Below are positions 28,582 through 31,401 of a DNA stretch of 64,000 nucleotides, piece by piece. Location: the NCBI RefSeq assembly GCF_002153425.1, contig NZ_KZ119600.1, positions 4,585,192 through 4,649,191 of the forward strand. Direction: 5' to 3'. Both the position numbers and the translations under genes were made by a program. The stretch's first letter is position 1; each line of letters starts with the position of its first letter. This DNA is from Litchfieldia alkalitelluris. GTDB lineage: Bacteria > Bacillota > Bacilli > Bacillales > Salisediminibacteriaceae. The notes below the pieces were generated by a model that did not search any database, was not told where the DNA came from, and saw only the letters and a list, made by a program, of their open reading frames with translations.

Positions 28582-28715
28582 AACTCCACCCCTAACCTAA
28601 ACCTTTATTTTATAGACGACAAATGCTTCATGAAGTTTCTTATCTTGGTTAAGTTATGATACTATTTTTTTCGCAAAACACTGCCGATCGTCACATTCTC
28701 CATTAGCAACCCAAT

Positions 28716-28762
28716 AAAAAAAGCATCTCTAATAGTTAGACTGTGTCCAACCATTGAGATGC
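28716..28762 (-). terminator. Terminator of yidC
   Basis: GCATCTCtAATaGTTaGAC (28723-28741) pairs with GTCcAACcATTgAGATGC (28745-28762) with a few mismatches. On the minus strand a run of seven T follows (28716-28722). Confidence 0.8.
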
Positions 28763-28825
28763 AGTTCAGTATTTTTATTTTGGATTTTCATATATATACT
28801 TTTTTAAATTCGAACTCGATATACT

Positions 28826-29656
28826 TTATTTTTCCACAGATGGATTTAATGCTGGCGTTGTATTCGGCTTATAAATCATCTTCGACAATAACGTCTGGAA
28901 GATAAGGAACAGTCCACCAACTGTCCAGTATAAAGGTAGGGCGGCCGCCATGTTGAAGGAGAAAATCCCCATCATCACTGGCATTGCTAGTCCCATCACC
29001 TTCATCATTCCTTCTTGTCCAGGTTGGACTACTACGCCAATCTGTGAAACTCTAAATTGAATGAAATATACAGCTGTGGCCAGTATTGGGAGAATCATAT
29101 CCCGCTCGCCAAGGTTGAACCAGAGAAAACTGTGCTCTGCGATTTCAGGGGTTCTCATAATGGCCCAATAAAACCCTATCAAAATCGGCATTTGAATTAA
29201 CATTGGTAAACAGCCCATCGATGCAATTGGGTTAAAATTGTGTTTTTGGTAGAGACCCATCATTTCTTGTTGCAACTTCTGTTGGGACTGCTGATCTTTT
29301 TTATCTTTATATTTATCTTGAATTTCCTTCATTTCAGGTTGAATAACAGCCATTTTTTCTCGCATTACAAGCTGGTTCTTCGACTGCTTCATCATCAATG
29401 GTAACAAGCCTAATCGAATGAGCAATGTCATTAAGACTAATGACAGACCATAGTCACCATTAAATAGCTCTGCGAAAAACTTGATTGAAAATGAAAATGG
29501 GTAAACGACATAGTGATTAAAAAATCCTGCTGTGTCGGCGTCAATTGGTTCATTTGTTGCACCACAGCCTGCTAGTGTCACCATTAAACCTAAAATTAAA
29601 ATGAGTAAACCATACCTTCTAAAGATTGTGAATACAGAACGATTTTCCTTTTCCAT
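28826..29656 (-). CDS. yidC: Membrane protein insertase YidC (lipoprotein form, SpoIIIJ/YqjG family)
   Basis: 276 residues. A lipoprotein signal (LILGLMVTLAGC) is followed by the Oxa1/YidC core: FNGDYGLSLVLMTLLIRLGLLPLMMKQ contains the conserved Arg in TM1; PMLIQMPILIGFYWAI and PLYWTVGGLFLIFQTLL complete the five-TM core. It inserts membrane proteins, alone or with SecYEG. Bacilli usually have two copies; this one is not next to rnpA, so it is probably the YqjG/YidC2 type. Its ribosome site GAGGAGG (29663-29669) lies in the end of a leader ORF that overlaps it by 38 bp and can be paired away in a stem, as expected for MifM-type control. Confidence 0.93.
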   Translation of the reverse strand: MEKENRSVFTIFRRYGLLILILGLMVTLAGCGATNEPIDADTAGFFNHYVVYPFSFSIKFFAELFNGDYGLSLVLMTLLIRLGLLPLMMKQSKNQLVMREKMAVIQPEMKEIQDKYKDKKDQQSQQKLQQEMMGLYQKHNFNPIASMGCLPMLIQMPILIGFYWAIMRTPEIAEHSFLWFNLGERDMILPILATAVYFIQFRVSQIGVVVQPGQEGMMKVMGLAMPVMMGIFSFNMAAALPLYWTVGGLFLIFQTLLSKMIYKPNTTPALNPSVEK

Positions 29657-29966
29657 TGTTGTCCTCCTCGAATGTTTTCATAATTAATTGAGTTGGGGAC
29701 AACTGGTATTCGCCATCATCTTCTGGGGCTTCCTTTCGCTTCACAATCCTTGTAATAAAACTTTGTCTCTGCTCCATTCCTTCTGTGCTCTGATCTTCTG
29801 ACATTGCCTCAAATAGGGCAGTCTGAATGTCTTGGTTGGAACGGTAACGATGCTGTACAACATATTCCTTCGCGAGGCTGTTCATTAAATGTGCTGCGAA
29901 AACTGTTAAGTATAAACTAATGGATACAAGTATAGGGACAAGATCATTGGAAAACTCGAAAATCAT
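29619..29966 (-). CDS. MifM-like leader peptide upstream of yidC (putative arrest sensor)
   Basis: 115 residues from the ATG at 29966 (AGGAGG about 11 nt upstream; the GTG at 29978 overlaps that site). One N-terminal membrane segment (about residues 9-28) is followed by a basic stretch (KEYVVQHRYR), giving N-out/C-in, a typical YidC substrate. A later ITRIVKRKEAPEDDGEYQL segment has hydrophobic, basic and then acidic residues, in the order of the B. subtilis MifM arrest region, although the sequences are not closely alike. The gene overlaps yidC by 38 bp. The stem that hides the yidC ribosome site begins two codons after PEDDGE. Inferred role: stalling reports low YidC activity and opens yidC. 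The family call rests on layout rather than strong sequence similarity. Confidence 0.6.
   Translation of the reverse strand: MIFEFSNDLVPILVSISLYLTVFAAHLMNSLAKEYVVQHRYRSNQDIQTALFEAMSEDQSTEGMEQRQSFITRIVKRKEAPEDDGEYQLSPTQLIMKTFEEDNNGKGKSFCIHNL
29658..29703 (-). promoter_or_regulatory. Stem hiding the yidC ribosome site
   Basis: On the minus strand GTTGTCC (29697-29703) can pair with GGACAAC (29658-29664), which includes part of GAGGAGG, the yidC ribosome site (29663-29669); loop of 32 nt. The 5' arm starts about six bases after the GAA codon of PEDDGE (29709-29726), so a ribosome stalled there would cover the arm and free the site. Confidence 0.6.
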
Positions 29967-30011
29967 CTCTGTATTCACCTCCTTTTAAGTGAAACCTACT
30001 GTGGAAATAGT

Positions 30012-30140
30012 TTTTGTTGGAACAGCCTACGGTTTACTCGCTTTCCGTGGGCGAACCGCAAGCCTCCTCGTTCCTGCGGGGTCTTGCCTGGCCCGCTGTT
30101 CCCACAGGAGTCTCTTAAACCTCCATTTGTTCCAACAAAA
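30012..30140. repeat. Structured repeat with nested stems, copy 1
   Basis: Terminal arms TTTTGTTGGAAC (30012-30023) and GTTCCAACAAAA (30129-30140) pair perfectly. Inside, GTGGG (30047-30051) pairs with CCCAC (30101-30105), and GCAAG (30058-30062) with CTTGC (30083-30087). The core CGCTTTCCGTGGGC...CCTCCTCG...TGCGGGGTCT...CCCACAGGAGTCTC is shared with 58284-58474. No ORF. It could be a MITE-like element or a structured RNA. Confidence 0.7.
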
Positions 30141-30441
30141 TATTACAAATAAAGTTTTATACTCCATGGTCTCTTTACTAATTGCATAAAGGTCTACCTT
30201 TAATCCTAATAAGGACGAGTGTACCTTCCACAAAATTCAGTTTATAAATCAACACTATCCTTAAAACAGAGCTGAAGTATCTATTTTAATCTATTTACTT
30301 ATGATACTTATTTCATGGATTATTGTGAAAAAGCGTAATATCCTTATCATCATGTATTTAGCCGATAATGTCAAAGTTTATTAATATCCTCTAAATATCC
30401 AGTATACCCTTTCTATCGTTTACTATGTATAAAAAGTTTCA
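30141..30441. other. A+T-rich gap without visible gene
   Basis: About 300 bp between the structured repeat and the amidinotransferase-like gene end. I see no ORF with a ribosome site and no clear hairpin. Confidence 0.5.
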
Positions 30442-31401
30442 TTATTTTGGCAGGACGGGATCACGTTTTAAGAAAGCTGTCATGCAGTGTATTGCTCCCC
30501 AGCCATTCATCACTTCGTCCATTTCTACTTCCAGCACCTCTACACCATGACTTTCTAACAGTGCCTTTGTGTTTGGTGAACCGGCTGGTGTAACAACCTT
30601 CCCTGGCTCCAGCGCAACGAAATTCATACTCATTCCTTGTTTTAATTCTTCAATATCATGAAGTTCAATTAATTCTATTCCTAGATCCATCAGCTTTTTA
30701 GCACAGTCATACCCCACATGCCACGGAAAAACTAGAAGCTTATTTTCACCCACCATATTCATATAACCATCAAGGTGGATAGACCCATATGGGATTTCTG
30801 TACGAATAATATTTTTTACCCCAATATTCTGCAATTCTGCCTCCACTTGTCTTGCCCCTGAGTCATTTGTTCGACTACCCGTTCCGATAATTACTGTTTC
30901 TCGATTAATCCACATCGCACTAGCACCTTCAAAATAACCATCACCATTTATCGTTTTAATAATTGGAACGCCTAAAGAAGCTAATGTCGCTGCTACTGCA
31001 CGTTCTTCTCCTCGGCGTGCTGGAATTGCTGGTCTGCAGACGATGGCCCCTTCAGGTGTCATCAACATCAAGTCCCTCATGAACATAGCGTTTGGACGGT
31101 CAACCCGCTGATTCTGAACATAATGGACATCAATCCCATGATTACGATAGACATCGGCTAGAGCCTCCTGCTGATATCTCGCCCTTTCTGGATTCATAGG
31201 AGCCCTGAAGCGGTACTCGGAAAAATTGTGTTCTGTTATCCCTTCCACTTCTTTCCCTGGTCTGTGCATGAGAACAGAACGTAGTTTTCCAACCTCAGAA
31301 TCACAATACCAATCACCCCATAAATCCTTAAGCTCATCAGAAAACGAATTCTCAGACGGAAACCACCGTTCTCCCTGTACTTTCACTTTGTTCATACTCA
31401 T
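30442..31401 (-). CDS. Arginine deiminase-fold hydrolase (dimethylarginine dimethylaminohydrolase-like)
   Basis: 319 residues of the guanidino-group modifying superfamily. Active-site elements appear in the right order: FMRDL near residue 108, the acidic FEGA near 158, HLDGYMN near 209, and the nucleophile in WGAIHCMT near 307. It should hydrolyse a guanidino compound such as arginine, methylarginine or agmatine-like molecules; amidinotransferase activity cannot be excluded. No arcB or arcC gene is adjacent, so it is not an ADI operon. AGGAGG lies 9 nt before the ATG. Transcribed alone. Confidence 0.85.
   Translation of the reverse strand: MSMNKVKVQGERWFPSENSFSDELKDLWGDWYCDSEVGKLRSVLMHRPGKEVEGITEHNFSEYRFRAPMNPERARYQQEALADVYRNHGIDVHYVQNQRVDRPNAMFMRDLMLMTPEGAIVCRPAIPARRGEERAVAATLASLGVPIIKTINGDGYFEGASAMWINRETVIIGTGSRTNDSGARQVEAELQNIGVKNIIRTEIPYGSIHLDGYMNMVGENKLLVFPWHVGYDCAKKLMDLGIELIELHDIEELKQGMSMNFVALEPGKVVTPAGSPNTKALLESHGVEVLEVEMDEVMNGWGAIHCMTAFLKRDPVLPK

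Follow-up and report, generated by a model that had tools for sequence, protein, structure and literature searches.

A MifM-family leader before yidC2 of Litchfieldia alkalitelluris and a predicted long-range helix between the leader ribosome site and early yidC2 codons

The window, that is, the whole stretch of 64,000 nucleotides analysed here, carries a gene for a secondary YidC/Oxa1-type insertase, yidC2, and, directly upstream and co-oriented, a small ORF that overlaps it (Table 1). The preliminary description of this DNA had reported a 115-residue ORF overlapping yidC by 38 bp and containing ITRIVKRKEAPEDDGE, and these coordinates were confirmed: the ORF comprises 115 codons from ATG 29966 to TAG 29619-29621 on the minus strand, ITRIVKRKEAPEDDGE corresponds to its residues 71-86, and yidC2 extends over 28826-29656. 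Position 29978 is the first in-frame GTG of the leader frame, from which a 119-aa version would start. The ORF has a single hydrophobic segment (residues 9-27, Kyte-Doolittle mean 2.03), preceded by an acidic N-tail with two acids. The genome holds one further yidC match, 49% identical and ~150 kb from yidC2, in line with a second insertase gene elsewhere in the genome. The ORF located 72 nt upstream of this other yidC (L001) appears to be YidD-like, as is the case near spoIIIJ. Just upstream of the leader is a 133-bp element (30012-30144) with inverted ends TTTGTTGGAACAG...CATTTGTTCCAACAAA. With 40 of 107 candidates scored, at least 44 matches to it were counted across the genome, a number that includes the element itself and many partial copies; it is a dispersed repeat family. 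Promoter-like sites numbered 8, compared to 6.3 (sd 2.5) in shuffles, and a search of 28600-30600 against Rfam gave no match up to E 0.1.

Table 1. Features of the yidC2 locus (positions in the window)
Feature	Position	Strand	Remark
MifM-family leader ORF, 115 aa	29619-29966	-	overlaps yidC2 by 38 nt
Leader Shine-Dalgarno, AGGAGG	29978-29983	-	
Predicted membrane segment, residues 9-27	29886-29942	-	N-tail MIFEFSND with E4 and D8
Predicted arrest region FITRIVKRKEAPEDDGE, residues 70-86	29709-29759	-	acidic codons 29709-29723
5' arm of yidC2 SD-masking stem, GTTGTCC	29697-29703	-	weak in this window
3' arm of yidC2 SD-masking stem, GGACAAC	29658-29664	-	
5' arm of long-range helix: leader SD, spacer (GGTGAATACAGA 29968-29979), ATG and first codons	29959-29982	-	
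3' arm of long-range helix: yidC2 codons 4-12 (TCTGTATTCAC 29628-29638)	29622-29647	-	adjoins leader stop codon
yidC2, secondary YidC/Oxa1-type insertase, 276 aa	28826-29656	-	presumed regulated gene
yidC2 Shine-Dalgarno, AGGAGG	29663-29668	-	

The leader ORF was found in all nine genomes of the genus, the window's own included, with 44-61% identity in the other eight. At the level of the family, 26 of the 35 genomes have a second yidC and 9 have one yidC only; an intact leader ORF lies before 25 of these 26 second copies, and the ORF is thus conserved upstream of yidC. The exception is L032 (G034:C10:129678-133475), in which yidC2 retains the SD-masking stem and the TCTGTATTCAC arm described below and no intact leader ORF was found upstream; this looks like a recent loss of the sensor. 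At another locus, L043 (G135:C1:2170491-2174279), yidC2 is 56-57% identical to the window's and the upstream ORF encodes a different membrane protein without acidic run. At L037 and L072 (Bacillus sp. MAG S6C1421) the leader is intact and the yidC2 frame is broken by stops, which is either assembly error or decay. The named relatives of the leader come from Evansella, Salipaludibacillus, Alteribacter and Bacillus sp. MAG, then from Aquibacillus and Sediminibacillus (15 loci), which points to an organism of Evansella type as the source of the window; such bacteria are alkaliphiles. Across 24 aligned family leaders, the window's included, M1, E4, R77, K78, P81, D83 and D84 are invariant, and the codons of the arrest motif vary synonymously (CGA, CGG, AGA or CGT for Arg77; CCT, CCG or CCA for Pro81), which points to selection on the peptide. 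Judged from these comparisons, the leader ORF and its motif exceed chance.

A profile built from the 24 family leaders was searched against the 1053 ORFs of the collected loci. It matched 61 of the 93 labelled leaders at E < 0.01, and the sole other match at this limit was an Aquibacillus leader unlabelled by the leader filter. The matches include yidC2 leaders from other families, one of them the MifM-like L153 (HRITTWIRKVIRMNSPANDDED, E 8e-4). L158, which shares 89 of 93 residues with L153, in turn matches MifM of PDB 3j9w at E 6e-48. When the profile was widened to 30 members, MifM was its first PDB match (E 0.012), followed at 0.03 by unrelated channels, which are chance matches. Against the same PDB set, the window ORF alone gave no match, MifM included, and the 24-member family profile alone did not reach MifM. 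The leader is homologous to MifM in sequence since it is linked to it through these intermediates. The profile alignment with MifM that had been suggested therefore succeeds by way of intermediates and fails for the window ORF or the family profile taken directly, and the earlier view that the likeness is one of layout only no longer holds. Pfam and NCBIfam contain no model for the window ORF or for two MifM-like relatives; weak matches to FlaX, AAA_3, DUF3320 and similar lay far under the cut-offs and were rejected. No MifM-like leader was found in the plasmid records.

The arrangement of the locus resembles that of B. subtilis, in which mifM (yqzJ) is a leader ORF before a secondary yidC, yidC2 (yqjG); B. 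subtilis MifM likewise has an acidic N-tail, one N-terminal membrane segment and, in this order, an aromatic-Ile, a basic and an acidic C-terminal run, with a masking stem just downstream (PMC6037786, PMC4423224). The acids of the MifM N-tail are reported to be needed for insertion (PMC8920935), and an acidic residue is present in the N-tail of all 93 leaders. From the membrane segment to the last acid we counted 59 residues in the window's leader and a median of 56 over the 93 leaders, the median membrane-segment-to-arrest spacing printed for MifM, obtained with another predictor, being 54 (PMC10987492). The window's leader thus has the membrane segment, the acidic N-tail and the spacer of ~54 residues that characterize MifM, in a predicted topology. 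On the ribosome side, uL22 of the window's genome has F85 and M90; in B. subtilis uL22, F85 touches MifM and M90, which is MifM-permissive, sets the species specificity (PMC4423224), and residue 90 is therefore of the permissive kind. The cores differ in several respects. That of MifM is printed as RIXXWIXXXXXMNXXXXDEED (PMC7897499), whereas FITRIVKRKEAPEDDGE is one residue shorter and is without Met-Asn (Met80-Asn81 in B. subtilis); the aromatic-Ile, the basic stretch and the acidic run are kept, with Arg at -3 and not -4 and a distance from the aromatic residue to the acidic run that is shorter by one residue. In addition, MifM of B. subtilis is encoded by 95 codons and stalls when a few codons are left to its stop (PMC6037786), whereas the window ORF continues across the yidC2 start.

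A MifM cluster of 572 proteins from 592 Firmicutes genomes was described by Fujiwara et al. in 2024 (PMC10987492); its members were selected because they cluster with MifM before yidC and have both an N-terminal signal and acidic residues in a stretch at residues 70-100. The window ORF likewise has the place, the signal and the acidic stretch. Since MifM homologues have already been described for these 592 genomes, the class is known and the window ORF is not of a new kind. Its assignment as a MifM-type monitoring substrate, and the place given to the arrest motif, are supported by the conservation in the genus and the family and by the profile link. We conclude from these comparisons that the window ORF is a MifM-family member by descent with a diverged core, for which arrest is predicted. 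The ORF might alternatively encode an ordinary small membrane protein that works with YidC2 and is no arrest peptide, and its greater length compared to B. subtilis MifM would agree with this. However, the conservation sits in the N-tail and from the motif to the acidic run, with the synonymous codon variation noted above, the spacing and the stem match MifM, and past the arrest motif the tail is mostly an out-of-frame translation of the SD and the beginning of yidC2, for which different species use two different frames. We regard this alternative as highly improbable.

The comparative tests below rest on leaders counted once per distinct protein, with a stop between -140 and +60 nt of the yidC start, a length of at least 85 aa from a start chosen by rule, and an acidic cluster. 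Stem tests were performed on 58 leaders, architecture, profile and first duplex tests on 93, and later helix tests on up to 102, full-length folds covering 93 of the 102 leaders for the helix and 101 of the 102 for the SD arm. The following were left out of the leader counts: L025 (duplicate protein), L032 (no intact leader), L043 (other ORF), L059 (87-aa leader, late start chosen by rule), L106 (distant match, 29% identical), L109 and L147 (profile matches of putative position, their yidC ORF not being located by the script) and 12 duplicate-genome loci (L069-L073 and L075-L081). L137 was left out of the first count only, and L082, dropped by a name filter, was restored (helix -16.7).

The preliminary description had placed, directly after the motif, a stem that masks the yidC2 SD and that a paused ribosome would melt. 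The two 7-nt arms are present as claimed, GGACAAC spanning the last two G of the yidC2 Shine-Dalgarno and the spacer. Taken alone, the window's stem is not above chance. The mRNA fold around the yidC ribosome site proved ordinary (z = -0.30, with 71 of 200 shuffles equally or more stable), and the yidC2 SD was equally hidden in 16 of 60 spacer shuffles. The arms gave -14.8 kcal/mol together versus a mean of -9.4 with the arms of diverged species, 7% of which were as good. In the full-length ensemble the stem had P = 0.25, a rival partner in the 5' part of the leader, near position -283, taking ~0.75. Among the relatives the stem is strong. Over the 58 leaders, the mean for the yidC2 SD being unpaired was 0.095 with the native spacer versus 0.308 with the spacer shuffled; 54 of the 58 loci lay below their own null mean, 34 were among the best 3 of 60, and in 53 the own arms were stronger than the mean of diverged foreign arms. 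In full-length folds, pairing of the SD with the arm downstream of the arrest codons reached a P of 0.5 or more in 46 of the 47 overlapping leaders and in 51 of the 54 others. These data indicate that the relatives generally have, as MifM does, a stem downstream of the arrest codons that hides the yidC2 ribosome site; the window, whose own stem is the weakest of its class, is the exception, being the sole locus of the 47 overlapping ones below 0.5. RNAalifold returned only 4 pairs on the family alignment, with a covariation term of -0.32, which we attribute to the SD side hardly varying and to the unequal spacer lengths.

As for the melting of the stem, 45-70 nt separate the last acidic codon from the yidC start (median 57; 55 in the window), so that a ribosome stalled at this codon would cover the 5' arm or at least reach it with its edge. 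When the stall was modelled in the 58 loci by blocking a footprint from P-15 to P+14 and recomputing SD access, access rose in 47 loci (mean 0.297) and did not in 11; in the window it went from 0.298 to 0.348 only.

A second pairing, missed in the preliminary description, connects the leader ribosome site to yidC2 codons 4-12. GGTGAATACAGA of the leader ribosome site is complementary to TCTGTATTCAC(A) of yidC2 and, with one mismatch allowed, the 12-mer of this helix is found at these two places only within the window. Codons 7-9 of yidC2 (Ser-Val-Phe, window numbering) are frozen in the family: among the sequences with the respective residue, TCT is used in 21 of 21, GTA in 17 of 20 and TTC in 20 of 21, the mean majority codon share over conserved yidC2 columns being 0.54 (23 of the 24 sequences; L037, with its broken yidC, was omitted). 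These codons are likely frozen because they are paired with the leader ribosome site. Pairing of the frozen decamer TCTGTATTCA with the arrest codons was considered as well and rejected, the native coding being among the best 10% of synonymous codings in just 7 of 31 loci.

The 93 distinct leaders fall into two classes: 54 are non-overlapping, with a stop 11-37 nt before yidC2 and a median length of 95 aa, and 39 are overlapping, reaching 26-131 nt into yidC2 with a median length of 121 aa. Duplex energies were computed for leader positions -16 to +7 against yidC2 positions +3 to +44. The mean was -22.1 kcal/mol for the 39 overlapping leaders and -17.95 for non-cognate pairs among them, which pair well because most share one consensus; for the 54 non-overlapping leaders it was -8.44 kcal/mol, like that of non-cognate pairs (-8.35). 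Early yidC2 codons were within the best 1% of tested windows along the locus in 34 of the 39 overlapping loci, and of eight extra loci seven have the helix and one does not. With a limit of -15 kcal/mol, the helix is present in 43 of 47 overlapping versus 1 of 55 non-overlapping leaders, the positive loci coming from at least 8 families (assigned by hand); the MifM-like L153 and L158 do not have it. Overlap and helix are not strictly tied, since the overlapping leaders L050, L068, L144 and L171 are without helix and L036 (G022:C3), which belongs to the window's own family, is the lone non-overlapping leader past the limit (-25.0 kcal/mol). The non-overlapping leader L104 (G124:C41), from another family, has -14.7 kcal/mol with 0 of 500 recodings equalling it; its near relatives are unremarkable.

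When yidC2 codons 2-15 were recoded synonymously, the median number of recodings, out of 500, that did as well as the native helix was 8 for the 47 overlapping leaders and 382 for the 55 others; for the window it was 8, the other 492 being weaker. Full-length folding gave a mean helix P of 0.66 in 46 overlapping loci (at least 0.4 in 40 of them) and of 0.05 in 47 others. In the window the helix has P = 0.90 and is part of the minimum-energy fold (z -1.63, with 6 of 100 shuffles equally stable); for the leader AUG, the unpaired value is 0.02 with the helix and 0.61 before the 3' arm is transcribed. The long-range helix is the stronger and more unusual RNA feature of the window compared to its yidC2 SD stem.

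Two-sided changes occur at most spacer and start-codon positions, counting only cells paired by the duplex program. With anchors chosen independently of pairing, in statistics drawn from related genomes, pairing was found in 80.6% of cells in register and in 26-49% after a shift by 1-3, with two-sided changes at 8 of 11 positions (46 loci). For ten unlike loci chosen by eye, the own arms gave a mean of -26.5 versus -15.0 when crossed, and were the best in 8 of 10 rows; none of 5000 permutations did as well. It could be argued that the operon has plain MifM control as in B. subtilis, and that the complementarity is a by-product of a conserved SD and of two overlapping frames, Ser-Val-Phe in yidC2 and Leu-Tyr-Ser in the leader. 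In the leader frame, the yidC2 arm is translated as LYS in 17 of 23 overlapping family leaders. Such double coding could by itself keep those yidC2 codons frozen, and MifM control does not need a second helix. However, the window, L030, L033 and L074 use the other frame over the arm and retain the pairing, while L034, L035, L036, L054, L169 and L173 differ on both sides and still pair. The preference of the ten unlike loci for their own arms also speaks against a by-product, as does the matching of the partners at the spacer and AUG, which are outside the SD; we judge this explanation improbable. Taken together, the comparative data make the long-range pairing well supported.

The co-variation would also be expected if the arms were inverted copies of a DNA operator for an unknown regulator, changing together through one bound protein, and the presence of the 12-mer at only two places in the window would suit an operator. 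A count of G-U versus G-A tolerance with fixed anchors had no clear outcome, the bases opposite G being C 150, U 82, A 56 and G 18; opposite the first G of GGUG, a weak test, they were C 14, U 17, A 6 and G 6 of 43, which suits G-U pairs. An operator would, however, account poorly for a 5' arm that covers the leader SD and AUG, for the rank of the early yidC2 codons along the overlapping loci, or for the recovery of the helix by thermodynamic folding of whole leaders, and we give this possibility very little credence.

All 43 helix-positive overlapping leaders end past the second arm, that of the window with its stop codon directly after it. This bears on the possibility that the helix is real but acts on mRNA life or statically lowers leader translation, as a negative control or a 5' protection, with no gate operated by ribosome traffic. 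The closed fold hides the leader SD and AUG and would also shield the 5' region, and the helix of L036 occurs in a leader that does not overlap yidC2. A static clamp, however, would not need the leader stop to lie past the arm, and we consider it somewhat unlikely. In the interval from 10 nt before to 25 nt after the yidC2 start, none of the 93 leaders has its stop, versus 26 of 186 for the other two frames. This contrast is suggestive only, since the limits were set after the first loci had been seen, the loci are relatives of one another, and L030 is a borderline case, with its stop 26 nt after the start when one of two possible yidC starts is taken. The gap might possibly reflect avoidance of termination-reinitiation coupling at yidC2. 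In one genus, the leader of one of the loci L144 and L134 ends 23 nt before yidC2 and that of the other runs 80 nt into it without long-range helix, which is perhaps a short leader turned long.

The reading we favour, with a probability of about three in four, is that of a MifM-family monitoring substrate combined with an SD stem and with a second lock that closes the sensor, idle mRNA being closed at both sites. Comparison across the loci supports that both ribosome sites of the mRNA can be closed, that of yidC2 by the downstream stem and that of the sensor by the long helix. The N-out membrane segment of the leader would be inserted by YidC. At low YidC capacity the nascent chain would arrest with the acidic run EDDGE near the peptidyl-transferase centre, and the stalled ribosome, sitting on the 5' arm of the stem, would free the yidC2 SD and allow yidC2 translation, as suggested by the comparative data for the stem and by the modelled effect of the stall. 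The second lock, present in this branch of the family, would consist of the leader SD, spacer and AUG paired with yidC2 codons ~4-12, ~330 nt downstream, a pairing favoured by the comparative evidence. The leader ORF extends so far that a ribosome which does not arrest would translate across the stem, the beginning of yidC2 and the second arm, and only then terminate. The long helix would shut the sensor ribosome site when no ribosome moves over the yidC2 start, and the decision would be made mainly by the first ribosomes, loaded during transcription. The sensor ribosome would load on the nascent mRNA before the 3' arm exists. If YidC is scarce, it would stall, yidC2 would open, and the ribosomes on yidC2 would keep the arm free; if YidC is sufficient, the ribosome would run through both arms and depart, and both locks could close. 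The sensor would be kept open by yidC2 translation in the ON state or by leader run-through.

From this we derive a more specific and tentative proposal, to which we give somewhat less than even odds: a two-lock, traffic-gated arrest-peptide operon, in which the first yidC2 codons would act over ~330 nt to shut the sensor ribosome site, each mRNA would sample insertase activity mainly in its first translation rounds, and both genes would then remain open during yidC2 translation or else both close.

CliM (uC_KYxIW) of Clostridia resembles the system proposed here in that it is an arrest peptide which monitors YidC, the yidC2 start being masked by a stem (PMC13183943). Its arrest motif K-Y-x-I-W differs, however, and was not seen in the translated window ORF when inspected by eye; nor was the R-A-P-P / R-A-P-G motif of the RAPP type (ApcA and relatives). 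In the available text of PMC13183943 no long-range helix was found, the words long-range and overlapping being used there for simulation and sequencing reads, and the main text of PMC10987492 does not use the terms overlap, reinitiation, translational coupling or long-range. In the literature searched, which covered few subscription journals, we found no description of a helix between the ribosome site of a MifM-type leader and yidC2. The Min Jou interaction of phage MS2 appears to be the nearest known logic found, with its direction reversed: there, as here, an early coding segment closes a distant ribosome site, and ribosome movement over the segment opens it, but in MS2 (PMC11339067) it is part of the upstream gene that shuts the ribosome site of the downstream replicase, whereas here early codons of the downstream regulated gene would close the upstream sensor.

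MifM-type sensors have so far been understood as one stem opened by a stalled ribosome. If the two-lock proposal is true, this would be, within the literature searched, the first arrest-peptide system in which initiation on the sensor is controlled by the coding sequence of the regulated gene. A co-varying second helix would suggest how leakage from the ordinary passage of sensor ribosomes is limited, and would suggest a reason for the overlap with yidC2 in this branch and for the nucleotide-level freezing of yidC2 codons 7-9.
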